The notes beneath the pieces were generated by a model. It was not told the origin of the DNA, searched no databases, and saw only the letters and a list, made by a program, of their open reading frames with translations. Both the position numbers and the translations under genes were made by a program. From Asparagopsis taxiformis (Eukaryota; Rhodophyta; Florideophyceae; Bonnemaisoniales; Bonnemaisoniaceae), in contig JALQPE010003128.1 in the NCBI GenBank assembly GCA_030407315.1, positions 1 through 64,000 on the forward strand: DNA of 64,000 nt. The letters are read 5' to 3'. Positions 4,926 to 64,000 of the stretch are shown here, in pieces (positions within the stretch are counted from its first letter, which is position 1; each line of letters opens with the position of its first letter).

Positions 4926-4927
4926 AA

Positions 4928-6795: not shown

Positions 6796-7131
6796 CCGTC
6801 CGGATGTCGCTCACCTGGTAAGCGTGATGCACCTGTGACAACCTATGTGACTGCAGTCACAGCCGCCATGGCGGCCGTGCAGTACAACACTCAAAGACAG
6901 GGAATCACAATCTTTTAATATTTTTCTCTACCACGTATCCGTCACAACTTATTACCTACACCGGTTACGGGTTTCAAGACCTTTCCAGTGCTGTGTACCC
7001 GTATACTCTGTTCCGTTCGATATCAACCAGTGTTCCTCACCAAAGAGTGCAAACGTCACGAGATACGTCGTCAAATTTGACTGTCTCGCCGAGCGGTCGC
7101 CATCCTGTACCGAATTTCCACTCATTCCATT

Positions 7132-30620: not shown

Positions 30621-30740
30621 TATAATCGGTCCTGCTCTTGTAAGACAGTGACCTTGTCCTGATCGGTATAGCGTTATAGCCTCTACATATCACCGAATAA
30701 ACTCATCGGACGTTTGGTTTTCTCATCAACTCTATCCACA

Positions 30741-39848: not shown

Positions 39849-39886
39849 GTACGTGTGCGAATCTTGATCAAGATTCGCGCACGTAC
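39849..39886 (+). repeat. 38-bp hairpin
   Basis: Two 19-nt arms starting GTACGTGTGCGAATC with one mismatch and no loop. It stands at the edge of the tandem-repeat region that follows. Confidence 0.85.
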
Positions 39887-41390: not shown

Positions 41391-41880
41391 GATTATTCAT
41401 TGCAAGGTTTTTGGATCATGGTTTGTATTTTGTGTAGGATGGATGATTCACTCATCCTCTCGGAGAGGTAAGTAAGGGAGTTTCTAAGATATCTGTCGTG
41501 GTAAGCGTTGCTTTTGAATCTGACTGTTGGGGTTGATGTTTTGTATGTGATGCAGGAGTGGTGAAGCAGGAACGGCAGGACTGAAGGAGAGTGAAGAAGG
41601 GATCTAGGAAGATGGGGAATGAAGCTGTGAGGTGTTTCTGGTATGTGTATATTTTCGAGCATACAATAGAAGTGAGAGTGGGTTTCAAGTGGTGTAAGAT
41701 TTTGCTGACCATGTTCGTGTTTGATGTCTTGATGATTTAATGGGCTGGGGTGGTGTCGAGGAAAAAGGGGATGGAATTGGGAAGGAGCGGATTTTTGTAA
41801 TCTAGGTCGTGAGGGTTCTTGAAATATGTGCGGATGGTGGTGCATGGCGTTCGGATGGTAGGGAGAACGCGATAGTGAGG
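41391..41880 (+). repeat. Imperfect tandem repeat region, right part
   Basis: Continues the array of 39887-40774 (block TTCATTGCAAGGTTTTTGG). It grades into sequence without recognisable features. Confidence 0.6.
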
Positions 41881-41902
41881 GAGATGGGTGATCGACGATA
41901 TG

Positions 41903-42055
41903 CTGACAGGTATTTCGTATTCTGGCTGGATACATATTCCGTATTCTGACTGGATACATATTCCGTATTCTGGCTGGATACGTATTTCCTATTCTAACCC
42001 GGTATTTATTTCCTATTCTGACCAGATATGTATTTCCTATTCTAGAGAGACGTAT
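41903..42055 (+). repeat. 24-bp minisatellite
   Basis: About six units of 24 bp based on TATTCCGTATTCTGGCTGGA. The minus-strand open frame through it repeats an 8-residue unit of the form RIRNMYPA, which I regard as a by-product of the repeat. Confidence 0.8.
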
Positions 42056-42175
42056 TGTATACGAGCAGTTTCCTAAATGAGAGAATAAAATACGGTCCGA
42101 TATGGGCCCTGAATTTACCATCCGCTGTAATTTCTTCCCTCCCGGTTTTCGCTGATATATTGTATACTGGATGTC

Positions 42176-42294
42176 GGGTCCTAGTATTCCGCCAAACGTA
42201 CTAGAGAAAGTGGACGTCCGCATCCAAAAAATTTTTATTTTTTTGGACGCGGACGTTCATTTGTTCTAGTAAATCTCGGGGCCGACTAGGACCC
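42176..42294. repeat. Nested fold-back (MITE-like)
   Basis: Outer inverted ends GGGTCCTAGT and its complement; inside is a second palindrome with ACTAGAG...GGACGTCCGC on the left and GCGGACGTTC...CTAGT on the right, around an A/T centre. It belongs to the GGACGTCC family also present at 46700-46900. Confidence 0.75.
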
Positions 42295-42295
42295 G

Positions 42296-42345
42296 TACTA
42301 GAGAGACTGGACGTCCGCGTCCACTTCCGAAAACACAGACGAAGC
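42296..42345 (+). repeat. Left inverted end beside the gypsy element
   Basis: GTACTAG, GGACGTCCGCGTCCA, TTCCGA and ACACAGACG occur in order here and, inverted, at 46683-46733. Together they bracket the gypsy remains like terminal inverted repeats. Confidence 0.6.
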
Positions 42346-46682: not shown

Positions 46683-46900
46683 CTCCGTCTGTGTTCTCGG
46701 AAATGGACGCGGACGTCCACAACCTCTAGTACACCTAGTATTACTAGGCGGACGTCCATGTTCTCCAGTATTTTTGGATGTCCGCCTAGAACCGGACGTC
46801 CATGCGGTCTAGTACGTCTAGTATTACTAGGGCGACATTCATTGTTTCTAGTACCACGGATGTCCCCCTCGGGATGGACTTCCGCCATGTCTATGTCCAC
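46683..46900. repeat. Cluster of GGACGTCC fold-backs and right inverted end
   Basis: Includes the inverted partner of 42296-42345 (to 46733) and two further fold-backs: CTAGTATTACTAG, and GCGGACGTCC inverted at GGATGTCCGC. Same family as 42176-42294. Confidence 0.65.
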
Positions 46901-48319
46901 CTAGGACGGGCGCCGGTTCAGAAATTCAAAAATTTCGACCCCAGAAATTTCTGCCGCCGTGCTCGACATGGATGTCCGCATCCATCACGGCGACCACTCT
47001 ATTTTTCCTTGTCGGTCGACTCCAATTTTGTCTTTAATTTTTTCATCCTCTCGCTCACACCCCCTTCCTGTTGGTGCTCACCTCCCCCGTACTGTACCTC
47101 AAACACCCCCAATACCACTCTAGCACGCATTTTCAGATACCTATCCCCGCTTCCACGGTGCACACCTCCATTCCATACCTACTTTTCTGCTCTACCGTAC
47201 AGATTTCGTATAACCAGTCCTCATACTACCTCAGAATAGGGCAAAACACCCCCTATCTCCTCGACCATGCTCTCCCCCATCACCTTTGAAACGTATTGTT
47301 CTTCAGTACCCTCTCTCCTCTACCCTCAACCCTCTCCTTCGCCCTCTACACAAACTTCCCCTGCAGCTTACTCTTCCAAAACCTCTCACTCCCCATCCCG
47401 TACCCGACCTGCTCCACCCCTCCCTCCCTCAGCTGCTCCATGCCCCCACGCCATCCGCATCTTCGATACCGTATACACCACCACCACCGGCCCACGCTCC
47501 CGCACTGCGGGGTGGCTCCCCCGCCGTCTCCCCAGAAACCTCCCCGCTCTGAAACACATATCAACCCCCCACTTCGCACCCTTCCTCCCACTCCCCTCCC
47601 TCCCCAAATACAATAACCCCCTTCTTCTCCATCACATCCCCACTCACCACAGCCAGAACAGACGCCACCCCCTCCCCTTCTTTCTCCTCACTTTCCTAAA
47701 AACCCCTCCTCTCGGCGCCTTCAACCGCACCCTCCTACGGTCCCACCTAAACACCTCCTCCGCCCTCACTACCCCAACACCCCGCAGCGTCTCCCCAATC
47801 CCCATAATATGCTTGTCGGCACTCCTCTCCGAATCACAATCCATTCTAAACCCGCACTCCGTACATTTCCACCTCCCCCTGTACCATCCCAAGATTCCAT
47901 CCCCCCACAGAACACATCCTCATACCACAGAAGAATTTTCTTCCTCTCATACCTCATCCTTAAAACCTCCATCAGCTCCATGTAAATTTCGATGAAAATA
48001 TTTTCTCTACTATGCAATCTCAAACATGTATGAGCCTATGCCTTTCCGCTTTGTCAACCCTGAATATTGGTACTCATGTATTCATAAAATAGGGCCACCC
48101 ACATCCCTATCCCGTTCTGCAAGCTTTACAAACCACTAGACGCATACTCCACAACTATACAACAAACACTACTCGCTATTTCAGACGACGCGGTACACAA
48201 GTAGCGTAGTGTCAACCTTCCGTGACGCCTTCCCTGATGCGTACAAGTGGGAAACACGTCTAGACGTATATCAGAACTGAGTGCGGGAATTTTCGGCACA
48301 GGAGATGCTGGGCCACCAA
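46901..48319. other. C-rich low-complexity region
   Basis: From about 47040 to 47960 the plus strand is strongly pyrimidine rich and gives long proline- and serine-rich frames. One minus-strand frame near 47870 contains WKCTECGFRMDCDSE, weakly like a zinc finger, but frames are short and broken. No gene is called. 48000-48319 shows nothing recognisable. Confidence 0.5.
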
Positions 48320-49245
48320 ATTGATTTTTCGGAAATTTTAGAATTTCTGGGCTGGCCAGCAATGCAATCGAGCTGGACATCCACCGGACGTCCATTTCAG
48401 GTTGGTCGCGAGAGGGTGGGGCGGGACCATGATGAAACAAGGACCAAGACCTTTCCCTGACGTGTTGAGCCTGAAATCGACCCTTCGTGAGACGCGATTT
48501 TGGCTTACAGTTGGTGCTAATAGAAGCCAGTGATAGCCCCGATCGGGGCGGCAGCCGGCTCCGGCTTACAGTTGGTGCTTACAGACGCCAGTGATAGCCC
48601 CGATCGGGGCCGGCGGTCGGTTCCTGGGGCCGTTGTGGCCAAATTAGACACCCTGATTTGAATTAAAATTTGGGCTATTCTCAAAAACATGCACATGTGA
48701 ACATGTTTTTGAGATGGGGGTGTGCCGTACGGCACAATCGACCGCCCAAATCGATGTTTTTTGCAATATTTTTCTGTGCCCGAAATTTTAGAATTTCTGG
48801 GCTGGCCAGCAATGCAATCGAGCTGGACATCCACCGGACGTCCATTTCAGGTTGGTCGTGAGAGAGCGGGGCGGGACCATGATGGAACAAGGACCAAGAC
48901 CTGTCCCTGGCGTATTGAGCCTGAAATTGACCCTTCGTCAGACGCCATTTAGCCTTACAGTTGGTGCTTACAGAAGCCAGTGATAGCCCCGATCGGGGCC
49001 GGTGGCCGGTGCCTGGGGCCGTTGTGGCCAAATTAGACACCCTGATTTGAATTAAAATTTGGGCTATTCTCAAAAACATGCACATGTGAACATGTTTTTG
49101 AGATGGGGGTGTGCCGTACGGCACAATCGACCGCCCAAATCGATGTTTTTTGCAATATTTTTTTGTGCCCGAAATTGTAGAATTTCTGGGCCGGCCAGGA
49201 ATGCATCTGAGTTGGACATCCACCGGACGTCCATTTCAGGTGATC
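48320..49245 (+). repeat. R repeats left of the second cassette (copies 5-6)
   Basis: A partial unit and two units with palindromes at 48722-48735 and 49111-49124, 389 bp apart. Between units is a short duplicated block (GGTGCTTACAG, CCGATCGGGGC). Confidence 0.9.
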
Positions 49246-49515
49246 GTGTATCGTGCACGTCCAGCCATTACCAGAAGCAAGTTGGCGATGAAGCACGTAT
49301 AAACCCAATTGTTCTGCTATTTCTAGCATAGACCATCGAGTCTAGAGATGTGAGGGAATCGTCCTGGAATCATGCTCCAACCCACTAGGGAATGGACAAT
49401 CTAGTTTGAAAGCATGGAACGGAAGTGCATTATAGTAGGTTCATAGATTGAAAGTGATAAAGGAGATGATTATATTCTCGATAATTGTTTGCTAAAGTAG
49501 TTGTTGTTAAGATAT

Positions 49516-52500
49516 CTAGCCGTCGGAAAACTGTTCTTCCTCTTCGTCCTCACTATGATAGTGAACTAGATATCCAGGTTGTCCCGGCAGAAGAGGCACT
49601 ACCGGGGCCACACTCGGTGTGTGCATTACATCCTTGCGAGGTTCTGTCGTCTTCATCCGCATCATTCGGAGCTGCCCTGTCTTCGGCCTACCATCTTTCT
49701 TGACCGGGATGGGAACAACTGTCTTGTGGCGAACATTGACAGGTGCCGGTTGACTTTGCCTTGCAGACCGGCGCGGAGCATTGGCGATGACTTCTTCTTC
49801 GAATCCCAACCGCCTGATGAAACCAAACGAAACATTGTCGGGAATCGGATACGACGCATTCCTGAAATACGTGTGATACCTCGTTGTCGTGTGTGACACA
49901 ACTCTGTCGACATGCCCTGCCCCGGCATGTTGTACATGGCCGTGACCGATGAAGACTGAACGTGGCGGAACGATTACCTTCTTCAGCTTCATCGTCTTGG
50001 CGTACATATCTAATTCCAGCGCTTTGGAAAAGACGTACTTGTGGGACCCTGGACACACCCAGATAGGGAATGGGTCATCTCCGTTGGCAATAACAAAGTA
50101 ACCCGGAAGTTGATCTTTGCGGTCGCGAGGAGGAACAGGGAAATCATTGTGTGGGACCTGCCGAGGACACCCCTTTCCCGTTATCAAAAACCGTCCCCCA
50201 GATGCCGGCATGACAAGTTTTTCTCCCGGTAAACCGCACTCCTCCAGCCCTGTCAGCCGGACAAGGATTCCCAACCACACATCCAGCAGGGCTCGCCGCG
50301 TCACAAACTTGAACCGGTCGATATGCGTCTCATCGTTCTCGGCATAGTCAACCAGGCAGTGGCGCGTAGACGTGAAGCGAGCCCTCCCCTCATTCCGGTT
50401 CTTCTCGTCTGTTTCATCGTCCCCCGTATTGACAATGGGACTCCACAGCTGCCGGTTCCCAGGGTCCTTGTGCACCTGCTCCCCCTCCCACGTTCCCAAA
50501 AAGTACCGAAACAATTCCTGGTTAGGAATTTCTTCCATGAGACCCAAGTCAAATGGGAACTTGTCCGACGCATCTAGGTAGCTTACATCCGCGAAATTGT
50601 GCATCACCGTATACCCTCGCTCGTTGATTTCCGTTCGGCAATTGTGGAAGTACGCCATACCAGTGCCGGCCTCATACGAATCCTTCCAGCTTGTAGACAT
50701 TCGCGCAACCTGAGCGAAGTCCAGCCTCGAGGGTAGAAACGTCGATGTAGGCTCACACATCGCCTTGGCAGCCATCTTCCACGCTGCGAAGAACATCGGA
50801 TAGACGTGATCGATTTCGAATAGCACACGAGCCCGATGTTCTTCCGGAATATGCAGCCCCTCAAACACAGGGTCCATCGCCACTTGCTTCAAATACCTCA
50901 CCTCTCTGCCCTCCTCATCGATTTCCACACTCTCCAATAACAACCTGAGCTCAATCGGGGGCAGACAGCCAACCCTCACCGATGCGATGACATCCGCGGG
51001 ACGCTGCGCCAGATGATGCCCTTCGGCTCGGTCTTCGAAATCGTCAGGAAGAGACGGCATACGGTCGTCGAAGAGGAGGTCGTCTTCAGAAGGAGAGTCA
51101 CGAACGATGTAACCGTCTTCATCGACTTCCACTCCTTCCGGAACAGTGAATGTAATTGTCACTTCGCGGACCCCCTTGCTTTCGACTTGGCCCTCGTCTG
51201 CACCCTGTTTGTCTTCCTCGTCCGAAGCGGTATGGACAGATTCTTGGTTGGAGGGAGTCGCACCAGCACGTTGGTTATCTTGGGGGACAATCTCAACGGC
51301 AGAATCGGGGGAACGGGCGGAGTCTTCGTCAACCTCATCACCGGAAGCAGTGGCTTGTTGTTGATCGGTGGGTTTATCAACAACGGCCTGCTCTTCTTCC
51401 CCGGCGGATTGTTGTACCACAACCGGCTCTTCTTCCTCGAGGCGTGTGCTCCCCGTCGAGCGAAGTCGCTGTGAACGGCGGCGGATGCCATGCGAAGCAG
51501 GCTCATGTTCGACATTCCGCTGCTTCTTGTGAGTGAGTCTCACATTGGCAGCAGAAGGGCGGCGTTTGCGTCGAGCCTTAGTCTTCTTCTTCAATGTCGG
51601 ATTGAAAAACTCTTTCAAGTTCGTTTCCAAATCCTGTAAACGCGTGGTTCTCCGTCGCATTCGAACCTCACTGCTCCGGTCGTCCCCTCTATACATTGCA
51701 ATGGCATTGGTGAGATGCCATTGCAACTCCTTCGGCTGCTTAACCGACCCAATTGCCATCTCTGTGCTCAGAAATGACTTGCGCATAATACTCTTTGGGC
51801 GCCCAAACGCAGCGTACAGAGAATTTGCTATTGCAGTCACGCGACGGACGTATGTATAAAAGTCGTTCACGTCAAAGCGTCCATCCGGACGTCCGCCATG
51901 AGCAGGGTTCAAGTACTCCGAAAGACCACGCAAGACGAAGACAAAGTTTTCTTCCAGCAACTCGCGCACTATCTTGTGGTCCAGGTGCGTTATCCCAATC
52001 TCGTTGCGGCGCTCGGAATTGTTCAGCTCACGCAACACGTCGTCGAGAACAGGATGCTTCAGCGTTGCTATAGCCAAACGCGTCCACCGCCGAGCCGTGT
52101 TCGTCGAATTCATCATCCCCATGAACTGCGCCTCGAACAATGTTCGGATGACATCAGACTCACGCAAGTCGCCAGCGTTTTCCACGTTGTTTGCAACAGC
52201 AATCGTACGGATGAACTGCTGGATGGACGACAAGATTCGAACCAGGGAGCGCTCCGTCAGTTGCGTCCCAGTCGTATGGTTCGACTCTGCACTCTTGTGG
52301 ATGATCTCATGAGGCTGGAGATCACTGTCGTCCTTGCGGCGAAGGTAGTACACATCCAGAGGCTGAGTAACCCAGCGCAAGCGGTTTGCCTCCTGTGGCA
52401 GCTTGGTTCTGTGCATACGGGTGAGGCGCGTGAAGTCATCCGCAATGCTATGCATAGCATTGAGACGATGCAGTCCGTCGATCACGGTCACGTTCGCATT

Positions 52501-53448
52501 GGCATGGAATTTGCCATTCTGGAACAGACGCGTGTCGGCGGACAAATGCGTGTTCTGCGACCTCAGCACCGTCACAGTGATACGCGAAGAGCTCACATAC
52601 CCCACCGCCAACATATTGTTGCGCAGGTCCTCCACGTGGTCTTCTTTGACATCGCGAAGGGTCACGGCCGGTTCCACTAGCTGCCTCACCAACACAGTCG
52701 CTCCTTCTCCGACGTAATCCGACGTCACAAACTTGGGCACCATAATTTGCGTCCCCTGCTGCTCACGAATGCTTTCCGCCACCTCCGGTTCGTCGTCCAC
52801 CTCGGTTACGTCCTGCGTAGTAGCTTCGGTGACGTTGGAGCGAGCAGGGTGCTTCGTGCCTCCACTGGAGGCTCTGGCAGAGCGAGCAGGGCGCTTCGTG
52901 CCTCCCGAAACCGGGACGGAGCGTGCTGGATGCTTCGTACCCCCCGAACCAGTGATTTCGCCTGCTGGACCGGTACTGGGCATCCGTCCCGAGCTGGCCT
53001 GGTTCGTCGCTGCGTTGAAGTTTGACGCTGCAGCAGGGGTACGAATGTCGCTAGAGCCATCCTCCGCAGCGGGGCGCATCATCCGAGTATCCCAAGGGTA
53101 AAACGCCGCGGCGTATGCTCCACCCATCGTCTCCGGCGGTCCCTCGGCGCCATCAAACATGTACGGGAACGGGAGGTCCTTGAACTTGTCCTTAGTCGCA
53201 ATGTTGCGCACGACGATATAGTCGGCCTCGTCGGTTTCCGGCAGCTTGTGGTTGTGCAGCGTGCGCGGAAGGCCAACATCGCCACCAGCAGTGCTCACCG
53301 AAGCCGTCCCAATATGCACAGCCGCACCGTCCACGTCCGCAAACAAGTCGACATCGACGCCGCGCTTGAGTCCGCGCGACTCCGCTGACGCGCTCACTTG
53401 ATCGCCGCAAACCGTTGAAAACAAACTGCTGAAATGCGTATCCGCCAT
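49516..53448 (-). CDS. Gene 1: ParB-like domain + 2OG-Fe(II) dioxygenase, intact
   Basis: 1310 residues from the ATG at 53448 (MADTHFSSLF); the decayed copy at 614-4583 has the same start. Residues ~130-180: repeats on GGTKHPARS. Residues ~235-400: ParB-like domain with VIDGLHRLNAM (D324 G L H R328), the conserved motif of ParB/sulfiredoxin-like nucleotide or DNA-binding domains. Then a helical region (~400-620), a basic patch (KKKTKARRKRR) and an acidic low-complexity linker (~700-850). The C-terminal ~920-1220 has the double-stranded beta-helix signature of 2OG-Fe(II) oxygenases: H1100-N-D1102, H1174 in VQHAG, R1190 in TTRYH. Iron ligands and the 2-oxoglutarate arginine therefore all seem present. 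Likely a nuclear oxygenase acting on DNA or chromatin proteins. Whether it is TET/JBP-like or phytanoyl-CoA-hydroxylase-like I cannot decide. Gene 2 lies upstream on the same strand. Confidence 0.82.
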   Translation of the reverse strand: MADTHFSSLFSTVCGDQVSASAESRGLKRGVDVDLFADVDGAAVHIGTASVSTAGGDVGLPRTLHNHKLPETDEADYIVVRNIATKDKFKDLPFPYMFDGAEGPPETMGGAYAAAFYPWDTRMMRPAAEDGSSDIRTPAAASNFNAATNQASSGRMPSTGPAGEITGSGGTKHPARSVPVSGGTKRPARSARASSGGTKHPARSNVTEATTQDVTEVDDEPEVAESIREQQGTQIMVPKFVTSDYVGEGATVLVRQLVEPAVTLRDVKEDHVEDLRNNMLAVGYVSSSRITVTVLRSQNTHLSADTRLFQNGKFHANANVTVIDGLHRLNAMHSIADDFTRLTRMHRTKLPQEANRLRWVTQPLDVYYLRRKDDSDLQPHEIIHKSAESNHTTGTQLTERSLVRILSSIQQFIRTIAVANNVENAGDLRESDVIRTLFEAQFMGMMNSTNTARRWTRLAIATLKHPVLDDVLRELNNSERRNEIGITHLDHKIVRELLEENFVFVLRGLSEYLNPAHGGRPDGRFDVNDFYTYVRRVTAIANSLYAAFGRPKSIMRKSFLSTEMAIGSVKQPKELQWHLTNAIAMYRGDDRSSEVRMRRRTTRLQDLETNLKEFFNPTLKKKTKARRKRRPSAANVRLTHKKQRNVEHEPASHGIRRRSQRLRSTGSTRLEEEEPVVVQQSAGEEEQAVVDKPTDQQQATASGDEVDEDSARSPDSAVEIVPQDNQRAGATPSNQESVHTASDEEDKQGADEGQVESKGVREVTITFTVPEGVEVDEDGYIVRDSPSEDDLLFDDRMPSLPDDFEDRAEGHHLAQRPADVIASVRVGCLPPIELRLLLESVEIDEEGREVRYLKQVAMDPVFEGLHIPEEHRARVLFEIDHVYPMFFAAWKMAAKAMCEPTSTFLPSRLDFAQVARMSTSWKDSYEAGTGMAYFHNCRTEINERGYTVMHNFADVSYLDASDKFPFDLGLMEEIPNQELFRYFLGTWEGEQVHKDPGNRQLWSPIVNTGDDETDEKNRNEGRARFTSTRHCLVDYAENDETHIDRFKFVTRRALLDVWLGILVRLTGLEECGLPGEKLVMPASGGRFLITGKGCPRQVPHNDFPVPPRDRKDQLPGYFVIANGDDPFPIWVCPGSHKYVFSKALELDMYAKTMKLKKVIVPPRSVFIGHGHVQHAGAGHVDRVVSHTTTRYHTYFRNASYPIPDNVSFGFIRRLGFEEEVIANAPRRSARQSQPAPVNVRHKTVVPIPVKKDGRPKTGQLRMMRMKTTEPRKDVMHTPSVAPVVPLLPGQPGYLVHYHSEDEEEEQFSDG

Positions 53449-53734
53449 GGTTGTTGAGTTGGAAAGGAAAAGAGATGGTTGACGTTGACGTATTCGAGTG
53501 ATGTGGATGGTATGTTTCACGTTAAGTTGAAGAATGGTCGTGAACGCCAATCGCTGGAAATAATAACACAATACAACCGAAATTTTGTTAGGTACACACC
53601 TATCGTGACCGCTGGAATGCAAGACAGGCAATCGAGATGTGAGTGTCCGTTCAGAACGGGCCCGAGTCGGGCTCTCGAAACCTGACGAGGTGGCGTGAAG
53701 CAGGCAGTGTCCTTGATGTGTAATGTGTTAAAAT

Positions 53735-53790
53735 TACAGCTGTCAAGCTAGGCGGCTTTTGGGGCGGCTGCGAGCACCCCTTTATCCGGG
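53735..53790 (-). promoter_or_regulatory. Conserved block upstream of gene 1
   Basis: Same block as at 4868-4925 and, shorter by about 17 bp, at 60487-60522 before the 761-aa gene: GGGGTGCTCGC, then CCTAGCT and GACAGCTGTAAT. Always between an R array and a gene start, so a promoter or transposon subterminal element. Confidence 0.5.
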
Positions 53791-53794
53791 GAAC

Positions 53795-54890
53795 ACCCTG
53801 ATTTGAGTTAAAATTTGGGCTATTCTCAAAAACATGCACATGTGAACATGTTTTTGAGATGGGGGTGTGCCGTACGGCACAATCGACCCGCCCAAATCGT
53901 TGATTTTTGCAAGATTTTTTGTGCCCGAAATTTTAGAATTTCTGGGCTGGCCAGCAGTGCATCTGAGATGGACATCCACCGGACGTCCATTTCAGGTTGG
54001 TCGTGTGCTGCCTACATCCACGCATTGCAGCAACTAAGCAGGCGGGTTCACTACTAATATAAAGTGCACGGAATATGAGTAACGTGATGGGTGAGTAGTG
54101 TTTCTGTTGAGGGAGTAAGGCGGGACCATGATGAAACACGGAAGAAGATTTCTCCCTAGCATAACTTAGGCTTGAAGCCTGCAATCGGCCCATCTTCCGG
54201 CGCCATTTAGCCTCACAGTTAGTGCTTACAGAAGCCAGTGATGACCCCGCTCGGGGCGGCGGCCGGTTCCTGGGGCCGTTGTGGCCAAATTAGACACCCT
54301 GATTTGAATTAAAATTTGGGCTATTCTCAAAAACATGCACATGTGAACATGTTTTTGAAATGGGGGTGTGCCGTACGGCACAAACGACCCGCTGAAATCG
54401 TTGATTTTTTACAATTTTTTTGTGCCCGAAATTTTAGAATTTCCGGGCTGGCCAGCAGTGCAATCGAGCTGGACATCCACCGGACGTGCATTTCAGGTTG
54501 GTCGTGAGAGAGTGGGGTGGGACCATGATGGAACAAGGACCAAGACCTGTCCCTGGCGTATTGAGCCTGAAATTGACCCTTTGTCAGACGCCATTTAGCC
54601 TTACAGTTAGTGCTTACAGAAGCCAGTGACAACCCCACTCGGGGCGGCGGTCGGTTCCTGGGGCCGTTGTGGCCAAATTAGACACCCTGATTTGAATTAA
54701 AATTTGGGCTATTCTCAAAAACATGCACATGTGAACATGTTTTTGAGATGGGGGTGTGCCGTACGGCACAATCGACCCGCTGAAATCGATGTTTTTTGCA
54801 ATATTTTTTCTGCCCTGAATTGTAGAATTTCTGGGCTGGACAGCAATGCAACTGAGCTGGACATCCACCGGGCGTCCATTTCAACTTGGT
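53795..54890 (+). repeat. R repeats between gene 1 and gene 2 (copies 7-9)
   Basis: Palindromes at 53867-53880, 54368-54381 and 54756-54769. The last two units are 388 bp apart. They face the inverted R units at 58630-60470, so gene 2 is enclosed by inverted arrays. Confidence 0.92.
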
Positions 54891-55111
54891 CTTGTATTTT
54901 GCATCTGCACGCATAACAGCAACCAAGCAGTCAGGTTCACTGCTCGGACGAAGTGCACCTAGAGTGTGAACGATTGGTTTTTGACAGGCGAGTACTGCCG
55001 AATAGGTTTCACCCTGGACTAATGGTGGCTGGACATTCTGCATTATATGATATACTTCAACTCTGGAACGTAGCTTTATTTGTAGTCGAAATGAAAACAT
55101 CTTTCGTGACC

Positions 55112-58100
55112 CTAATTCCATGCTCTAAACGCTGTCCCATAATGAACGTAGAGCTCCTGCCCCGGACGGATATCGCGGATTGCACGTACTACAATGATCT
55201 TCGGATTTTCTAGGTCCTTCGCCTTGAGCTTCTTCCCCGTCGAACCGCTGCTGTAGTTCTCGACAAACTCGACGTTGGCCATCCGCCTGGTGTCTTCCGC
55301 CGGAGTGTCCTCACCTCGCAAATACCGCGGGTCGTTGATGAACTGCGCCGAACAGAACGGAGCCGGAACAATCCAAATTGGATGCTCGATGTTTTCGTCG
55401 TCCTCCGCTGTTGCATACAGCTTGATAGCATACATCAAGAATGTTTCCTTCGTTATCGCCATGTGACCCTCTCCGTACGCGAACCTCATCGACTCCTTGC
55501 TCATATCAGAGTACACAACAGTTCCGTAGTATGCACATACTTCGTCACCAACATTAAATGTCTGTTCAGCGAAGAGCCCTCTTCCTGCATTTGGATGCTT
55601 AATCAGCGATGGTCGAACGCTCAATTTTTTCGCAACACAATCGTGTGCCCGCATCACGCGAGGGTTTTCAGTTTGCAACCAGCGGCGCAGGGAAGGTGGC
55701 CAATAATGTACCGGTTTCTCCATGTGCTCGCGCGACGCAATCGACTCTGGGCACAGCTGCCAGAGGTACTGCCGAATATATTTCGGGAACCTCTGGTACA
55801 GGGGAAGGCCAGGTGGGGGTTCGATGATCCTGCGTTCCCTCTGCGTACGCATCGTGACAGAGGGGGACGCCAAGAACTTCTCAGCACTCTGTTTCGCTTC
55901 TGTCGTGACCCTCATGTCAGTGTTGTTTGAAAGAATTACACGTGACATGACTGCACACAGCTTTGGAAGCGATCGTACCACACACAATTTGTCCATGTCA
56001 CTGCCGACGAAAACACGGTGCTCAGGCAAGCTCATAGCTGCTTTTCCCGTTGCGAAAGTGCCAGAGAATGGATCGACAACAATATCACCAGGCTGTGAAT
56101 GCTGGCTGATCAACTCCATCATGAGAGCGACGCTCTTCTGCTCTGCACGAACTCTGACCGTAGCACCGGTTGTGCTCCTTGTTCGCCACACCATCTCATT
56201 CGAATCGATGGCGGGCATATTGATGGTGACGTTGCACCACGCCGGGTACGTGCCGTCCATGTATCCGTGGTTCCTATAGGCCACCATCTCGCTTCCGGTC
56301 TTGAACGGAACACCTCGCTTCCAGAAGTGGATAGCGACCTCTGCCATGTTCATGCGTTGGTACCTCTTCCGCCCCGGCATTTGATAGAGGTGCCCAGGTA
56401 GTCGGACAAACAACAGAGGTACCTCGTCAACGAAGAAAACTGAATTCCGAACGACGTCCTCCTCCTCCTCGTCCTCCTCCTCATCCGCACTTTCTTCGCC
56501 ACTGTGCTGCGATGCTTCGGAGTCCGAATTCATGGACGTAACCTCTTCTTCATCCGACCCGTCATCACTGGCAGCAGTATCGGTTGGGCCTTCTGACTGC
56601 GGTCCTTTGTACGTTTCCAAGTAATGGAACCATTCGTAGAACTGCAAAACCGAGCAGAACACGATGCCGTGGCCACCGGGGCGCAACAGCTCGTCAAACA
56701 CTTCGATGCTAGCCTGCATATCTTCTGCAGTTAGCCTGTCGTACGAAGAGTTGGAATCGTTCCTCTTACGACGAACATTGTAGGGCGGATCAGTCAGAAT
56801 GAGCTGAACGTTGCCCGTGATGGGCACGTGTTCTCGGCTCTCGTCGGCACTGACCAAATCTTCGAAAGGGACGTCGTACACCCGGCAATACTGACTCATT
56901 TTCGAAAGAAAGTCCTTTGCGAGAGCCTGCCCTTCACTTTCCTGCTCTTCTGTCGCATGGGGTGACGGTGACGGGGGAGACGGCCCTTGGGCAGTAAGAC
57001 TGGTCCTCCCAGGTCCAAGTTGAAGCCTGGTTGTGTGTCTTGTCGACGGAACCAAACCTCTCCCTCCTGTGTTGCGACGAGTGGGAGTGTCATCAACCGG
57101 CTTGGGGACCTTTTCTGCGTCCGCGGCTTGTGGTGCCGGGCGGAGGACAGCCATAACGTCTTCGTCGAGGGTGTCAAAATACGCTGGCAGCTTGTCCGGA
57201 TTTCCGCTTGAGAAGTATATTTCCAGTGCCCCCCAGCGGTCGGACTCCGGCCAGGTGTACAGGTCCGGGTTGACGATAAGAAACTGCAACCGGTCGAAGA
57301 ACTTCCTCACAAGGTCCCTAAATGCACTGTGCTGCGCACTGGTTCTTGTCTCTACTTTTCCACCATATCCATCAGGATGAGATAGGGGAGCTTTGTTGTG
57401 GTAGAGATCTAGCTTCTGCTCCATCGGTGCGAATAGACCTTCATCGAGCACGTCAAACCAATGCTCACTGCTGTCGAAAATGATGTACGGCGCCATCAAC
57501 TCTTCGAAGCTGGAAAACTTTGCGGCGTAGGCCACATCGGTCCAAGCATGGTATAAAACTTGAACCACGTAACAAGCTCGATTAGTGCTTTTCCGATGGG
57601 CTGGGACGCGTGCGGCTTCGTTCCCCTCTTCGGCCGCATCTCCTATTCGGCGACGCGGCAGGTTCTTGTTGTGATTTCGGATGATAGACAACGCTTGGAA
57701 ATACATCAATACCTCGAACGTTTCCGGTGGAGCAAGAACGAAGGCGCTTGGTTCCCCGCGCTGCGGCGCCTGTAGTGGCGAAGGAAGCATGTTACATCCA
57801 ATAAGGAAGGTCTGCGGCACGATCCCAGAAAGGATGCAGTGCTCAACCCATTGCCCGATACGCTCATCCTGTCTTGAAAACTCGGCAATGGGTAATGCCA
57901 GACGAACAATCTGCTTGGCTCGCTCAACGTTCATCTCTGCCATGACGATTTCGGCAACATCCGCCTCGACTCCAGCATTCTTCGAACGACCGCTGAAGGA
58001 CATGCTGAGTCGACCTTGCAGCGCCACAAATTGTTCTTCCGTGCCCTGCGCAACCCAAGCGCCAAGGTCCGCGTATGTGAAACCTCCCGGCTTGTCCGTC

Positions 58101-58309
58101 AAGTCTGCGAAACTTGAGTGGGCGAATAAATCCAGCAAGAGGCGGAGGAAGTCTTTGCCAGCGAGAGTAGTTTCGCGGGCGGCGCGACCTACGTTTCGAC
58201 GTGTACCCATGTCACTAGAATCCTCCCAAGGGCTAGCGGGTTCGCGCAGAATTGGCACGGTTGCGTCGTCAACGATCGGATTGCTGTTGCGCCTGCGCTT
58301 ATTCGTCAT
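55112..58309 (-). CDS. Gene 2: DNA methyltransferase (beta class) fused to SET, intact
   Basis: 1065 residues from the ATG at 58309 (MTNKRRRN). The first ~430 residues are helical and unrecognised, followed by a Pro/Ser-rich linker. The methyltransferase has motif IV TDPPY (507-510), RPGGHG, an inserted acidic stretch (DEEEDEEEEDVV), then motif I DPFSGTF (746-752). Motif IV before motif I and DPPY identify the beta class of N6-adenine/N4-cytosine methyltransferases (PF01555 type). The C-terminal SET domain (~890-1065) has NAGRGLFA, VCAYYGTVVY, FINDPRYL where usual SET proteins have NHS, and ELYVHYG where they have YDYG. The variant NDP may alter activity. One protein could thus methylate DNA and histones. 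It lies between inverted R arrays, upstream of gene 1 on the same strand. Adenine versus cytosine specificity cannot be told from sequence. Confidence 0.88.
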   Translation of the reverse strand: MTNKRRRNSNPIVDDATVPILREPASPWEDSSDMGTRRNVGRAARETTLAGKDFLRLLLDLFAHSSFADLTDKPGGFTYADLGAWVAQGTEEQFVALQGRLSMSFSGRSKNAGVEADVAEIVMAEMNVERAKQIVRLALPIAEFSRQDERIGQWVEHCILSGIVPQTFLIGCNMLPSPLQAPQRGEPSAFVLAPPETFEVLMYFQALSIIRNHNKNLPRRRIGDAAEEGNEAARVPAHRKSTNRACYVVQVLYHAWTDVAYAAKFSSFEELMAPYIIFDSSEHWFDVLDEGLFAPMEQKLDLYHNKAPLSHPDGYGGKVETRTSAQHSAFRDLVRKFFDRLQFLIVNPDLYTWPESDRWGALEIYFSSGNPDKLPAYFDTLDEDVMAVLRPAPQAADAEKVPKPVDDTPTRRNTGGRGLVPSTRHTTRLQLGPGRTSLTAQGPSPPSPSPHATEEQESEGQALAKDFLSKMSQYCRVYDVPFEDLVSADESREHVPITGNVQLILTDPPYNVRRKRNDSNSSYDRLTAEDMQASIEVFDELLRPGGHGIVFCSVLQFYEWFHYLETYKGPQSEGPTDTAASDDGSDEEEVTSMNSDSEASQHSGEESADEEEDEEEEDVVRNSVFFVDEVPLLFVRLPGHLYQMPGRKRYQRMNMAEVAIHFWKRGVPFKTGSEMVAYRNHGYMDGTYPAWCNVTINMPAIDSNEMVWRTRSTTGATVRVRAEQKSVALMMELISQHSQPGDIVVDPFSGTFATGKAAMSLPEHRVFVGSDMDKLCVVRSLPKLCAVMSRVILSNNTDMRVTTEAKQSAEKFLASPSVTMRTQRERRIIEPPPGLPLYQRFPKYIRQYLWQLCPESIASREHMEKPVHYWPPSLRRWLQTENPRVMRAHDCVAKKLSVRPSLIKHPNAGRGLFAEQTFNVGDEVCAYYGTVVYSDMSKESMRFAYGEGHMAITKETFLMYAIKLYATAEDDENIEHPIWIVPAPFCSAQFINDPRYLRGEDTPAEDTRRMANVEFVENYSSGSTGKKLKAKDLENPKIIVVRAIRDIRPGQELYVHYGTAFRAWN

Positions 58310-58629
58310 AATGGAATGAGTGGAAAATTCGGTACAGGATGGCGACCGCTCGGCGAGACAGTCAAATTTGACGACGTATCTCGTGACGTTTGCACTCTTT
58401 CGTGAGGAACACTGGTTGATATCGAACGGAACAGAGTATACGGGTACACAGCACTGGAAAGGTCTTGAAACCCGTAACCGGTGTAGGTAATAAGTTGTGA
58501 CGGATACGTGGTAGAGAAAAAATTTTAAAAAGATTGTGATTCCCTGCCTTTGAGTGTTGTACTGCAAGGCCGCCAGTCACATAGGTTGACACAGGTGCCT
58601 CACGCTTACCAGGTGAGCGACATCCGGAC

Positions 58630-58830
58630 GGCCACTGGACGTGGGGATGTCCGACTCAGATGCATTGCTGGCCAGCCCAGAAATTCTACAATTTCGGGCA
58701 GAAAAAATATTGCAAAAAACATCGATTTCGGCGGTCGATTGTGCCGTACGGCACACCCCCATCTCAAAAACATGTTCACATGTGCATGTTTTTGAGAATA
58801 GCCCAAATTTTAATTCAAAGCAGGATGCAG
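58630..58830 (-). repeat. R repeat, inverted partial unit (copy 10)
   Basis: Palindrome at 58741-58754, opposite orientation to copies 1-9. It is ~320 bp upstream of gene 2, equivalent to copy 4 in the decayed cassette. Confidence 0.9.
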
Positions 58831-59929
58831 ATATTCGTCTTCTACCATTGTCAGAACACATTCGTATAACCACATTTGGAGAACCTGAGCCCAGAGCTAT
58901 CGGTTTTGGCGGGAGCTAAGCCATATCTCATATAATCAGTAACTACTTCCCGCCAGCTGAGTGGTGGAACCCCTGCTATTTCTACCAACGAGACATACGG
59001 GGTGTCAACTCGGCAATCGTATATGATTTGGGTGCTAAATTTATTCAAGAGACGAATGGGCTTCGAAAAGGAGCCCAACTACGTCTACTTGTGATCCATG
59101 GGTATAGGACTATTCTATTCTTCTCCAGGCTTCCACCGTAGCCGCCTCCTCCGCCTCCGTTAATGGAAAGAATATCCGAACCGCACCTCAACATGTTCTT
59201 CATGTGATCCATGGGTACTGACATCTCACATGCTCTCCAGGCTTCCACCGTAGCCGCCTCCTCCGCCTCCGTTAATGGCAACAATATCCAAACTGGACCT
59301 CTACATGTTTTTCTTGTGATCCATGGGTACTGACATCTCACATGTTCTCCAGGCTTCCTCCAAAGCCGCCACCTCCACCTCCGTTAATGGAAAGAATACC
59401 CGAACCGCAGGCTTCCTCCATAGCCGCCTCCACCTCCGTTAATGGCAAAAACATCTCACCGGGCTGAAAACGGACGGACGACATTGGGTTCGTTCCGCTG
59501 CGTAGACGTTTAGAATCTTGTTAGAAAAAAGTAAACGAAAGAGAATGACATCTCATCTCTGTCGCAATATGTTCCATTTTCAAGTTCTCGGGTTCCACAC
59601 CCATCAAGGCCTGGATCGAACCCTCTTCGATGGATAGGACAAATAGTGGAAGGCTTTTAAGCCTGTGACCAAGCGGCTATTGATTGGTTGGAGGAAGGAA
59701 ATTACAGAGGAAATTTAGCTGAGTACGGTGCTCGCGATAGCTGTTAGGTTAAAGTCAAATATGTGTTTCGATTATTTTTCGTACGAAAATGTCTTGCAAA
59801 AGACGATGCTTTGTCGTTCTCCTGGAGGGAGTCCGTTGCATTGCACTCAATTCGAGAGCATCGTCATGAAGGAGAGGATTCTTTCTGCTTGTTAGAATCG
59901 GTTTAGAGCACATAGCTAATGCATTACTG
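58831..59929 (-). repeat. Spacer with minisatellite, second cassette
   Basis: Reverse-complement counterpart of 5481-6599. From 59080 to 59460 it holds CCTCCACCTCCGTTAATGG-type minisatellite units, more in number here than in the first copy. No gene is supported. Confidence 0.8.
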
Positions 59930-60470
59930 GCCAGCCCAGAAATTGTAGAATTTCGGGCAGCAAAAATATTGTAAAAAACCTTGATTTGGGCGGCCGATTG
60001 TGCCGTACGGCACACCCCCATTTCAAAAACATGTTCACATGTGCATGTTTTTGAGAATAGCCCAAATTTTAATTCAAATCAGGGTGTCTAATTTGGCCAC
60101 AACGGCCCCAGGAACCGACCGCCGCCCCGAGCGGGGTCATCACTGGCTTCTGTAAGCACCAACTGTAAGGCTAAATGGCGTCTGACGAAGGGTCAATTTC
60201 AGGCTCAATACGCCAGGGACAGGTCTTGGTCCTTGTTCCATCATGGTCCCGCCCCGCTCTCTCACGACCAACCTGAAATGGACGTCCGGTGGATGTCCAG
60301 CTCGATTGCATTGCTGGCCAGCCCAGAAATTCTAAAATTTCGGGCACAAAAAAATATTGCAAAAAACATCGATTTGGGCGGTCGATTGTGCCGTACGGCA
60401 CACCCCCATCTCAAAAACATGTTCACATGTGCATGTTTTTGAGAATAGCCCAAATTTTAATTCAAATCAG
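59930..60470 (-). repeat. R repeats, inverted (copies 11-12)
   Basis: Palindromes at 60000-60013 and 60388-60401, 388 bp apart. The array ends at 60470, followed by the conserved GGGGTGCTCGC block and the 761-aa gene. Confidence 0.92.
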
Positions 60471-60486
60471 GACGTCTTCCGGACAT

Positions 60487-60522
60487 AGGGGTGCTCGCGG
60501 CCTAGCTCGACAGCTGTAATTG
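60487..60522 (+). promoter_or_regulatory. Conserved block upstream of the 761-aa gene
   Basis: AGGGGTGCTCGCGG followed by CCTAGCTCGACAGCTGTAAT. It matches the minus strand of 53735-53790 and 4868-4925 next to gene 1, with about 17 bp fewer in the middle. It links this transposon gene to the R-repeat cassette. Confidence 0.5.
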
Positions 60523-60704
60523 TACCTCATTAAATACTGTTGATGACTGCCTACCGTATACAATCTGGGCTGTTGGCGTATTATCCGGTACTTGACCTGA
60601 CCTGAACGTTCATCGCAGACCGTTGTGGTTACCGACACTATACAGCAATCTTTTTTGTATCTCGTGCAACTCAATCGTTCCATCGCTTCCGGGAAAGCTT
60701 CATT

Positions 60705-62990
60705 ATGCCGCCGCGTATTGCGAAGAAAGCTCCAAAGCCTCCGGGCCTCCAGAAAACCCGGTCAGCAGCTGCTGTATCGAGTGCCCGACAATCCCGTGCG
60801 AAGAAGCGGTCTGGGCCTACCGGCAGCATTGAACCGCGGTCCGGTAGTCGCAAGACGGACCGGCGCAGAACTGGGGATCCGCAGCGAGAAAGTGAGGAAG
60901 GAGGAACGGCGCGGAGAGAGATGGGGCTTGACCGAGGCAAGCGTGCTCGCAGGGACAGTGAACATCATGATGATGACATGATAGTGGCTCAAAACATGTT
61001 GGAATTGCGGCAGAGTGCTATGGCAAAGGTAGTTCCTCCCGGGTTGGCAGATGCGGAGGTGCTGCAGACGGAGTCCCAGCCGGGGGTTCCCGAGACACTG
61101 GAGGCTGTGACCCCCACTGCGCCAACTATGCCGAGTACATCAGCCCCAGCAGGTAATGCAGTCAGGGACCCGAGGATAGCGGCAAGGGATGTTGTTTCTG
61201 AGCAACGTTCACAGGATGCCAACTATCATCGGCGGTCAGGTGGTACTGAGGGGAGAGAGCAGCCGGAGTGCGGGCCTCGTCACAACAGACTGTCATTGGT
61301 GCCAAATATGCGCGTAACGCCCCCGCGACGTCAGGCTATTGGCGATGGAGGACATCATATTCCCGATAGCGTGGGAGATGGGGGGACGGTGAGGGCAGAG
61401 AGGTTGCATCCGCCGGAATCCATCGATTTAATGGCGAGTCGCATCAATGCGCAGAAGAAGAAGATCGCGGAGCTGGAAAAAAAAGTGTTTAGCCAGGACA
61501 TAGCAAACAAGGCGCTCACCACGGAGATTGTTGCGTTGGAGGCTAAGGTGAAGACTCTGCAGGCGGAAAATGCCAGCCTTACTGCAATTGCGAGAACAGG
61601 TAGAATCAGTGATCACGGTGGCGGTAAGTCGAAAATACAGAAAGCCATTCCTGTGAAATACCTTGGAGTTCTTAGGGCGGTTGAGGAAAACCTGACAAAG
61701 TGGTGCAAGAACGAGACTATGGAGCTGGACCCTATAGCGGAACAAACGCAGAGACGTTGGACTGGACGTACCATCGAGGTAGAGCCGGTAGAAGGGGCAC
61801 TTTGGAGCGAAAACGGTGTAGGATATATTGCTACCCCTCCGGGCTATATCATCAAGAATCTGCAGTGGTATACACCTTCGTACAGGGACGAGAGTGATCT
61901 GCTGAATGACTTGGTGCGACACGTACTGCGTCAAAGTCCGTGGTGTGATGTGTTTTCCGATGAGGAGCAGCGTGTGTGCTGTCAAGAGGCTGTGGCGGGG
62001 AGCAAGGAATTGAAAGTGAAGGTGACGCAGAAACTGTCCGACGTGATGAGTGCACGGAAGCGTAATGCGAGGGACAGATTGTTCGGTTCGCTGGGGTACA
62101 CGAAATTAATGTCTAGATGCACGATGCTGACGACGCGAGCTGAGATGGACGAGCGAGAGGAACAAAAGCGCGAAGCGTCTGAGAAGCTTTTGAAACGGGA
62201 AAGTAACGGTGATTTGGATATGGGGAGGTGGCGAACGGCACCGTTCTCAGAGCTGCGATACAGCAAAGGCTTGGTTCCTGACAGCTTCGAAATGGAAGTG
62301 AATGGTGATGCATGGTTTAACAACCGAGTAGCTGTGAATGTGCTGGACATCTTCAGGGGTTATTCGATACGACCAGAACAAGTAATGGACATAGAGACGA
62401 GCATACTAACGCTGGCGCGCCTGGATGCTTGGCTAGTGACTACTGTGGAGTGTTTGGATGAACCGAAGGGGAAAGGAGGTGCACGGCAGAAGGAGTTTAC
62501 AAGGCGGTACAGTCAATATGTGGGGGTAGCTTTTCAGCAATTAGTTGGTATGGTGGTGTACTGCATGTCTTGTCTCCAAGGCTCGCAAGCAAGGGAAGAA
62601 ACGGACGTTGTCGAGAGCGAACAGCGGACTAGTGCACAGTCACGGCATGTGTTTGCAAGCCGTACTGTGACGAGAGAGGCTGTTGAAGTGTGGCAAAGCG
62701 GAGAGGGGTCTGGAATTGTTCATGTCGTTGATGATGTAAACCGCTGCTCATCACTTGTTCTAGTGTCCGAGGATTGGATTCAATCGCATATTACGTCAAA
62801 CCTCGGTGCTGTAATGGATTGTGTGATTGCGCAAGGACTAATTGGCGCAGAACTTTTCGTCGTTGACCCATATGCTGGACACCTGACTGCAAACCTGAAT
62901 GTCGAAATCAATGCCCCACAGTATGGGGGCATGGAGCGGCGCCATGCAGCCACTGCTGATAACGGTTTTGGCGTAATGGAGGATGGTTGA
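60705..62990 (+). CDS. Coiled-coil transposon protein, 761 aa, intact
   Basis: Starts at ATG 60705. Residues 1-240 are basic and disordered (KKAPKPPGLQKTRSAAA, KRARRDSEHHDDD). Residues ~245-300 form a strong coiled coil (KKKIAELEKKVF, VALEAKVKTLQAENASL). Residues ~310-640 look folded, with AVEENLTKWCKNETM, HVLRQSPWCDVF and VTQKLSDVMSARKRNARDRLFG, then a helical stretch YVGVAFQQLVGMVVYCM. The tail ~640-761 is variable. It resembles in plan the split 467-aa protein at 17326-25119. The gene is convergent with the transposase gene, stops 77 bp apart. I know no named family; a DNA-binding or scaffold partner of the transposase is the likely role. Confidence 0.75.
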   Translation: MPPRIAKKAPKPPGLQKTRSAAAVSSARQSRAKKRSGPTGSIEPRSGSRKTDRRRTGDPQRESEEGGTARREMGLDRGKRARRDSEHHDDDMIVAQNMLELRQSAMAKVVPPGLADAEVLQTESQPGVPETLEAVTPTAPTMPSTSAPAGNAVRDPRIAARDVVSEQRSQDANYHRRSGGTEGREQPECGPRHNRLSLVPNMRVTPPRRQAIGDGGHHIPDSVGDGGTVRAERLHPPESIDLMASRINAQKKKIAELEKKVFSQDIANKALTTEIVALEAKVKTLQAENASLTAIARTGRISDHGGGKSKIQKAIPVKYLGVLRAVEENLTKWCKNETMELDPIAEQTQRRWTGRTIEVEPVEGALWSENGVGYIATPPGYIIKNLQWYTPSYRDESDLLNDLVRHVLRQSPWCDVFSDEEQRVCCQEAVAGSKELKVKVTQKLSDVMSARKRNARDRLFGSLGYTKLMSRCTMLTTRAEMDEREEQKREASEKLLKRESNGDLDMGRWRTAPFSELRYSKGLVPDSFEMEVNGDAWFNNRVAVNVLDIFRGYSIRPEQVMDIETSILTLARLDAWLVTTVECLDEPKGKGGARQKEFTRRYSQYVGVAFQQLVGMVVYCMSCLQGSQAREETDVVESEQRTSAQSRHVFASRTVTREAVEVWQSGEGSGIVHVVDDVNRCSSLVLVSEDWIQSHITSNLGAVMDCVIAQGLIGAELFVVDPYAGHLTANLNVEINAPQYGGMERRHAATADNGFGVMEDG

Positions 62991-63067
62991 AATTAGTGCA
63001 GTAAATGTGACGTTGACTAGAAGGTTTATCATGTAGTACATTATCAATAGAGTGCTGCGATTTAGAT

Positions 63068-64000
63068 TTATTCTTCTTCATTATCATCTGTGAATTGGTA
63101 ATCAGTGTTGGTGTAGAAGCGGTTGAGATAGAAACGGTGGTCCGACCAGTGCATTTGTTTCGTAAATGGCTTGACTGGAAAGTTACTTCGTACGATGTGC
63201 ACGGTGCCAGATATAGTAGATGCAGGAATGAGGTCAAACCAAGGACCACCTGCACTGTGGGATGCAGTGTCATTGCTGTCAACGGATCCGTTGTCCGGGT
63301 CCCATGTGGACCACTTTAAACAAATGCACCCAAGTGATTTTTCCACAGCGGTTTTTGGGGCAAAGCAGGTCATATACTGAACGAAAGCGAGTTCTACAGG
63401 TTGAAACAGGTTTGGAGACTGCAGGCGTACCAGTGCCAGGACGCGCCCTACCCATATGGTTCTGTAGTCATCGGCAGTTCCGGAGATGACGACAAAGGAG
63501 TACTGCGATCTCTTTGCGGGGCCGAACGATGAAGTTGCAAAGACGCGCTGCTGCTTGTGCCTCGACACGTTTGTGGGGCGAAGCATGCCACTGTGCGGGT
63601 CAAAGTCGTCGGCATCTGGGACGTACCCTCCCATGACGTAGGCGGACTTTACCACGGTGACGGAAATGTCCATGTCATGTATTGGAGGGCCTTCTGCCGT
63701 GGCGCGCAGTCTAGCGAGGGTGAGGAACGCTTGTGCAGCTGTGTCACCGAGTTGCTGGAATAGCGTTATGGTGCCAGACGGGAACGAGGAGTTGTGCAGC
63801 GGCAAAAGAGTGGCAGGATCGGGCTGTCCGTCGATATCTGCAACGAGGAGGGTTGCATCGGGCAGCAGGGAGGCAAAGTCGTGCAGTGCAACGGTGAATC
63901 CGTCGCGAACGAGTACTGCACCGTCTGTGGGCGATATCATGCGTGCGTTTCCCAATGTGTTCGATGGGGTATGACCAGTTGGAGTGGCCAAGGAGAATTC
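63068..64000 (-). CDS. Plavaka/CACTA-type transposase, C-terminal part, runs off window
   Basis: Open to the window edge. Its first ~55 visible residues (from 63991) match the end of the interrupted transposase at 36968-39250 with one or two changes (GNARMISP versus GNPRMISP) through DADIDGQ-type sequence VADIDGQ. It then gives the part lost in that copy: PDPATLLPLHN, YMTCFAPKTAVEKSLGCICLKW, and an end DDNEEE. The region after the catalytic core (MGGYVPDADDFD, RVLALVRLQSP) resembles the C-terminal regulatory part of Plavaka transposases. No frameshift is visible, so this copy may be whole. It is the best candidate for mobilising the elements in this window. Confidence 0.8.
   Translation of the reverse strand, partial: EFSLATPTGHTPSNTLGNARMISPTDGAVLVRDGFTVALHDFASLLPDATLLVADIDGQPDPATLLPLHNSSFPSGTITLFQQLGDTAAQAFLTLARLRATAEGPPIHDMDISVTVVKSAYVMGGYVPDADDFDPHSGMLRPTNVSRHKQQRVFATSSFGPAKRSQYSFVVISGTADDYRTIWVGRVLALVRLQSPNLFQPVELAFVQYMTCFAPKTAVEKSLGCICLKWSTWDPDNGSVDSNDTASHSAGGPWFDLIPASTISGTVHIVRSNFPVKPFTKQMHWSDHRFYLNRFYTNTDYQFTDDNEEE

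Follow-up and report, generated by a model that had tools for sequence, protein, structure and literature searches.

Several described systems resemble, in part, the locus reported here. The bdelloid rotifer protein N4CMT joins a bacterial-type permuted amino-methyltransferase domain (PF01555) to a chromatin domain in a host without C5 methyltransferases (PMC8885841). In Phytophthora, the DNA transposons HarbingerS and MuDR carry a SET-domain gene (cited in PMC12730594), and in fungi Plavaka, KDZ and other transposons carry TET/JBP genes, so that a Plavaka-family transposase occurs with a dioxygenase-type gene of the HxD...H kind (PMC12730594). Captured C5 DNA methyltransferases (DNMTs) are found on retrotransposons of dinoflagellates and charophytes (PMC5890265), and the Plavaka giant repeats of Amoebidium have database matches that include red algae (PMC11244446). 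We studied a 64,000-nucleotide stretch (the window) of contig C2995 in an Asparagopsis taxiformis genome assembly (G000; 141.5 Mb, 3,156 contigs), which contains the left part of a Plavaka-family transposon. Its gene 2 encodes a predicted DNA amino-methyltransferase (MTase) domain and a SET domain in one protein, next to a gene for a putative oxygenase (gene 1).

Gene 2 is a single open frame of 1,065 amino acids (aa) plus a stop, with no inner stop; we call its product P0001. A Pfam scan placed PF01555 at residues 501-774 (57 bits against a cut-off of 26.7, 3.4e-15) and the SET family PF00856 at residues 909-1058 (29.5 bits against 22.4, 1e-06). Beta-class methyltransferases are recognised by motif IV, (D/N/S)PP(Y/F/W), placed ahead of motif I (FxG). 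In P0001, TDPPY at 506-510 (DPPY 507-510, motif IV) precedes DPFSGTF at 746-752 (motif I, DPFSG 746-750), which is the permuted order of the beta class. This order is also described in PMC8885841, where DPPY is the motif of bacterial N6-adenine (N6A) enzymes and SPPY that of most bacterial N4-cytosine (N4C) enzymes. The SET pseudo-knot of P0001 reads FINDP (N992-D993), with the Asn retained and the His replaced by Asp. The hallmarks of SET-domain lysine methyltransferases are an NHS or NHxC pseudo-knot, GxG, YxG and a C-terminal Tyr. An earlier sequence-only reading had proposed a beta-class N6A/N4C methyltransferase with TDPPY and DPFSGTF, a SET domain near the C-terminus and a change of NHS to NDP, all in one polypeptide. 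Both profile matches above cut-off and the FINDP stretch agree with it, the motif positions being correct within one residue, and the joining of the domains holds, as judged at the frame level, in all 43 scored genomic copies.

These copies are 100% identical over residues 1-1065 and free of stops, and the gene occupies at least 43 places, a lower bound given 4,133 candidates in the genome. At the DNA level we compared 13 copies (8 whole, 5 partial): 11 match the window gene exactly, and the other two differ by 2 and 4 synonymous codons, with 0 non-synonymous changes. Such copies were too alike for a test of selection by the ratio of non-synonymous to synonymous rates (dN/dS), and the divergence of the flanks around a near-invariant gene 2 was not used, as it is confounded by repeat shuffling.

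The same reading had taken the gene to be transposon-borne, and it is: the element has terminal inverted repeats (TIRs), a Plavaka transposase and a high copy number. Its ends lie outside gene 2, the right one beyond the window; the whole element spans 46686-68952 on C2995 (22,267 bp). Inverted repeats beginning CGTCTGTGTT are present at both ends, which also carry GGACGTCC-rich repeats. Allowing up to 2 mismatches, the TIR pattern matched 1,356 times on the forward and 1,383 times on the reverse strand of the 141.5 Mb (2,739 matches), and the pattern read backwards, used as a control, matched 0 + 0 times. Among 12 end pairs picked from a list of nearby opposed ends, some of which may not form one element, 6 showed an identical 2-bp target duplication (C12a AA, C14 TG, C20 AT, C90 TT, C52 TA, C436 TA) and 6 did not (C11, C12b, C88, C100, C67 and the window copy); at 1/16 per pair, the binomial P is about 4e-5. 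The transposase was recognised in the C503 copy (PF18759, 87.3 bits against 26.3). A PF18759 transposase, TIRs and a target site duplication (TSD) of 2-3 bp are features of Plavaka transposons, and the repeat family of the element shows them. PlavakaA ends in TGT..ACA and PlavakaB in CATCA..TGATG (PMC12730594); the termini of this element, CGTCTGTG..CACAGACG, fit neither, and we therefore do not file it under either subfamily.

In 7 of 10 copies compared (C110, C436, C444, C632, C787, C933, C503), gene 2 is continuous with a stretch that matches the window from 36968 onward and encodes the Plavaka transposase, gene 1 being included in 6 of the 7. C476, C426 and C749, the remaining copies, either show rearrangement or run into the end of their contig. 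Gene 2 is flanked by inverted repeats (54405-54777 and 59992-60364; 373 nt, 96%). Two of the 10 copies (C426, C444), as well as a decayed copy at 1-7863, have it in the opposite orientation to the remainder of the element. In the decayed copy, gene 2 lies on the plus strand and gene 1 on the minus strand, which places them in inverted relation; the DNA identity is about 95% over the gene-1 part, and gene 2 is cut at residue 244. Gene 2 between its inverted repeats is an invertible segment. We also observed a non-autonomous derivative of 11.1 kb (C14:6193-17321, L131-L132) with both element ends, the TSD TG and no open reading frame (ORF) of 200 aa or more. It has internal inverted repeats, and several further opposed TIR pairs lie 10-12 kb apart.

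To place the fusion among known proteins, 5.8 billion sequences were searched and 7,994 candidates scored. This gave seven relatives of P0001, namely P0002 at 98% identity and six others (P0003-P0008) at 28-33% by BLAST. With P0002 left out as a near-duplicate, alignment A3 has eight members: P0001, P0003-P0008 and the protein of a second MTase-SET family in the same genome (family 2, described below). The fusion aligns in all eight, at 23-33% identity to P0001, and six members pass both Pfam cut-offs (P0001, the family-2 protein, P0003, P0004, P0006 and P0008). The SET score of P0007 is below the cut-off (18.2 against 22.4 bits), and P0005 ends inside the SET domain, the part present aligning with no reported Pfam match. 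GxG, YxG and the pseudo-knot Asn are retained in 8 of 8 SET rows, and the C-terminal (H/D)YG in 7 of 7 complete ones. In the order P0001, family 2, P0003-P0008, motif IV reads DPPY, DPPF, DPPY, DPPQ, YPPY, APPQ, DPPL and DPPF. Among solved structures in the PDB, the family profile matches DNA methyltransferases (DpnA, 7.6e-14), and a profile built from the SET part alone finds SET enzymes (KMT2C, 2.1e-6, over two collinear stretches).

P0003 and P0005 form a clade in all three domain trees (N-terminal, MTase and SET), and P0006 and P0008 do so in both trees that contain them; family 2 groups with P0007 in the N-terminal and MTase trees and does not in the SET tree. A single old fusion event would be the simplest reading of these trees. 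A scan of GTDB with P0001 found no prokaryotic relative, and the matches in 78 viral loci and 16 phage records are confined to the MTase part; on these grounds, a prokaryotic or phage origin of the whole fusion was rejected. A further profile search with alignment A1 recovered only P0002, so the family was not widened.

The host of the element is likely a red alga: the genome has 10 matches to light-harvesting complex (PF00504) and 13 to phycobilisome-linker (PF00427) families, and contig C38 carries genes of both kinds together with element ends. A fungal host, a possibility raised by the Plavaka match, was set aside for these reasons; a search for PF04082 gave 0 candidates, its control being equally without a match. 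The C5 methyltransferase family PF00145 has no match in this genome, and in a prokaryote control it was matched in 10 of 14 genomes. The observed/expected CpG ratio is 0.97 in the element, 1.00 at the RPL3 locus, 0.89 in window positions 7901-36900 and 0.87 in the non-autonomous copy. Taken together, these results suggest that 5-methylcytosine (5mC) is probably absent from the host, in which case the enzymes of the element are unlikely to act on it.

Gene 1 matched no Pfam, NCBIfam or PHROG family, nor any Pfam family up to E=10, the TET/JBP profile included. By motif, it has a ParB-like DG.HR stretch, retained in 3 of 3 aligned relatives, and a putative core like that of 2-oxoglutarate (2OG) dioxygenases, whose HxD and distal H are retained in 4 of 4. 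The database relative is a single protein, P0009 (34% identity over the alignment). At least 35 copies occur in the genome, and all 35 scored are 100% identical. Gene 2 lies within 3 kb of 15 of the 21 gene-1 matches on contigs up to C1039, where the gene-2 list ends; 14 further gene-1 matches fall on later contigs, outside this count.

The window also holds a broken gene of family 2. We scored 85 places for this family in the genome. All but one of them (84) show about 98% identity, and 55 of the 85 have a listed open frame of 1,186 aa. A frame of 1,063 aa (L133:16-3207) passes both the PF01555 and PF00856 cut-offs and is 23% identical to P0001. Gene pairing was examined at a single family-2 locus, on C1734, where a gene-1 relative adjoins the family-2 gene in convergent orientation (31.7% identity over 145 residues, 4e-12); it is spread across three frames and its ParB-like part matched only at E=0.002. 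On the opposite side lies a further oxygenase-like ORF (29%, 1e-19). That a gene-1-type gene and an MTase-SET gene are paired across such divergence is, with one family-2 locus, the best evidence that the two may function jointly. From the copy number we infer that family 2 is a transposon as well; its transposase and ends were not found.

Other sequences surround the family-2 genes. Extra dioxygenase-like and ParB-like genes (L134:2319-3467 and L135:274-3857, both on the minus strand) lie around the MTase-SET gene of family 2, and an ORF at L134:3-1193 (minus) is of no recognised kind. In the window, two ORFs beside family 2 have no assigned function: 25517-26878 (minus) and 23815-25119 (plus; ORF23815). 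The latter has 97 scored genomic matches at 98-100% identity, several near family-2 genes. A copia element at 17392-23776 has long terminal repeats (LTRs) that are 99.8% identical. On C1734 (L134), the match to 17050-17391 runs directly into the match to 23778 onward, which indicates that this copia element was inserted within the repeat of family 2. The family-2 gene itself is interrupted by a fragment of another copia element, starting at about 30626.

How might such a protein serve the element? In the reading we prefer, which we hold at a little short of even confidence, the MTase-SET protein would methylate the DNA of the element together with histones in its vicinity, and would thereby protect the element from silencing and preserve its mobility. 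Silencing escape is also the role assigned to transposon-borne TET/JBP genes in PMC12730594. The element would then encode its own system for marking DNA and chromatin, and would remain active through it. Its DNA product may more probably be N6-methyladenine (6mA) than N4-methylcytosine (4mC), because motif IV is DPPY. The N-terminal region of P0001 and the ParB-like part of gene 1 may help to locate the repeats of the element, the putative oxygenase may remove or mature a mark, and the SET domain may write lysine methylation or hold it in place. As the host has no detectable C5 machinery, such a system would apply private marks rather than erase host 5mC. A larger claim, which we consider doubtful, is that the element brings a complete private epigenome: one polypeptide writing a histone mark as well as a DNA mark other than 5mC, an element-encoded oxygenase editing the DNA mark, in a host lacking C5 methylation, and the whole kept by at least two mobile families.

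Several observations weigh against the preferred reading. Motif IV is degraded in 4 of the 8 members (DPPQ, YPPY, APPQ, DPPL), the other 4 having DPPY or DPPF, so that what is conserved may be a function other than methylation. Asn-Asp replaces the Asn-His of the SET domain at the NHS position in all 8, the pseudo-knot stretch falls outside the alignment in the PDB matches to SET, whose second collinear stretch is weak, and the structure model of P0001 is poor (mean predicted local distance difference test score, pLDDT, 52.1) and too weak for use. A recent spread that left little time for decay would also account for the near-identity of the gene 2 copies. As for gene 1, its domains were assigned from motifs, and 6 of the 21 matches have no listed gene-2 neighbour, which the scope of the list or contig ends may explain.

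In another reading, only one half of the protein works. The SET domain would then be a non-catalytic binder, and the protein, like the bdelloid N4CMT, a DNA methyltransferase tethered to chromatin; N4CMT is itself a precedent in a host without C5 enzymes (PMC8885841). Alternatively, the MTase would be dead and SET the enzyme. ND in place of NH in all eight members and the loss of motif IV in four speak for this, but P0001 keeps DPPY and the family-2 protein DPPF, and the remaining SET hallmarks (GxG, YxG and Asn in 8 of 8 rows, the C-terminal Tyr-Gly in 7 of 7) have been retained; we regard it as unlikely. The methylation might instead serve the transposase. Dam ties transposition to replication for some bacterial transposons. 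By analogy, the MTase, with its ParB-like/oxygenase-like partner, would mark the terminal repeats and tie transposition to replication or to the state of the element, with SET docking on chromatin. This agrees with the unbroken run between gene 2 and transposase sequence in seven of the ten copies, six of which include gene 1, and with the GGACGTCC-rich repeats at the element ends. However, the MTase has no known target site, and the C14 derivative shares the ends and target duplication with no long ORF, a finding that is compatible with marking in trans but does not require it. We judge this role to be distinctly unlikely.

Finally, the genes could be passive cargo, hitchhiking in a giant Plavaka-type repeat with no benefit to the element. 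Such cargo has parallels in the Plavaka giant repeats of intron-poor genes in Amoebidium (PMC11244446), and at least one copy of the present element moved without the genes (C14). Yet genes of these two kinds adjoin in both families (at one family-2 locus), with 23% identity between the respective MTase-SET proteins, and the fusion is retained in six further proteins; we consider mere hitchhiking very improbable.

The features of the window are collected in Table 1. The frame of gene 3 measures 794 aa from stop to stop in the window copy, L104 and L101; it is 670 aa in L090, L087, L097 and L096 because of an indel (insertion or deletion), and even shorter in L100. Gene 3 has no detectable relationship to ORF23815. 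Tandem repeats of 24 bp with a unit like TATTCCGTATTCTGGCTGGATACA occupy 41911-42044, and a matching stretch lies at 67630-68440 on C2995, in the right-hand part of the element. A fragment of a Gypsy-type retrotransposon with integrase zinc-binding and core domains was found at 42205-45575.

Table 1. Features in and around the window (coordinates on contig C2995; a dot means that no strand applies).
Feature	Position	Strand	Remarks
Decayed second element copy	1..7863	.	gene 1 (-) frame-broken; 7132-7863 (+) is the 5' part of gene 2
Family-2 MTase-SET gene, broken copy	27650..30626	+	open copies elsewhere in genome
Right-hand fragment of another element copy, broken Plavaka transposase gene	36968..42341	-	
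Transposon, in-window part	46686..64000	.	TIR 5'-CGTCTGTGTTYTCGGAARTGGACGCGGACGTCC; left end 46686
Repeat array, 300-390 bp units	48309..49250	+	downstream of gene 1
Gene 1	49516..53448	-	1,310 aa; by motif, a ParB-like DG.HR stretch and an HxD...H core like that of 2OG dioxygenases
Repeat array separating genes 1 and 2	53675..54903	+	contains one of the two paired inverted arms around gene 2
Gene 2	55112..58309	-	N-terminal conserved region, beta-class N6A/N4C methyltransferase domain (predicted), SET domain (predicted)
PF00856 SET domain of gene 2	55136..55585	-	residues 909-1058
PF01555 methyltransferase domain of gene 2	55988..56809	-	residues 501-774
Inverted repeat copies around a 112-bp tandem repeat	58636..60502	-	other arm of the pair; copies 58636-58827 and 59919-60502, tandem repeat 59122-59409
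Gene 3	60705..62990	+	761 aa, coiled-coil-like; Pfam matches all below cut-off
Plavaka-family transposase ORF	63071-66178	-	1,036 aa stop to stop; C-terminal part 63071..64000 in window

How new is this arrangement? The sequence-only reading had called it a new kind of selfish epigenetic tool, which stands in part. Among the titles and abstract openings surfaced by searches of the open literature (subscription journals and Repbase Reports were outside the search), none shows an N6/N4-MTase fused to SET, and no open paper holds both PF01555 and PF00856. To call it new in kind goes too far: transposons with SET or TET/JBP genes (PMC12730594) and retrotransposons with C5 DNMTs (PMC5890265) have been published. 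The element that carries the fusion is intact and present in many copies, and its host has no detectable C5 methyltransferase. An active protein would link DNA and histone marking in cis, and with at least 43 identical copies of gene 2, long-read sequencing of the alga should be able to measure any marks.

Each of the known systems also differs from this one. N4CMT is a host gene with conserved introns, SPPY and a chromodomain (PMC8885841), whereas gene 2 is transposon-borne and has one open frame, DPPY and a SET domain. The HarbingerS and MuDR elements belong to other transposase superfamilies, and the available text of PMC12730594 mentions no DNA methyltransferase in their SET proteins. Unlike the fungal TET/JBP transposons (PMC12730594), this element has a gene 1 that matches no Pfam profile and carries a ParB-like motif; the partner of gene 1 is an MTase-SET protein, and the host is likely a red alga. 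Many genes of the Amoebidium repeats are tyrosine recombinases, with no mention of MTase-SET in the accessible part of PMC11244446, and the DNMT elements are retrotransposons with a C5 enzyme, for which the corresponding part of PMC5890265 does not mention SET. In the portions of these papers at hand, transposon-encoded epigenetic enzymes are described singly; here, predicted DNA-methyltransferase and SET domains are physically joined, beside a candidate oxygenase.

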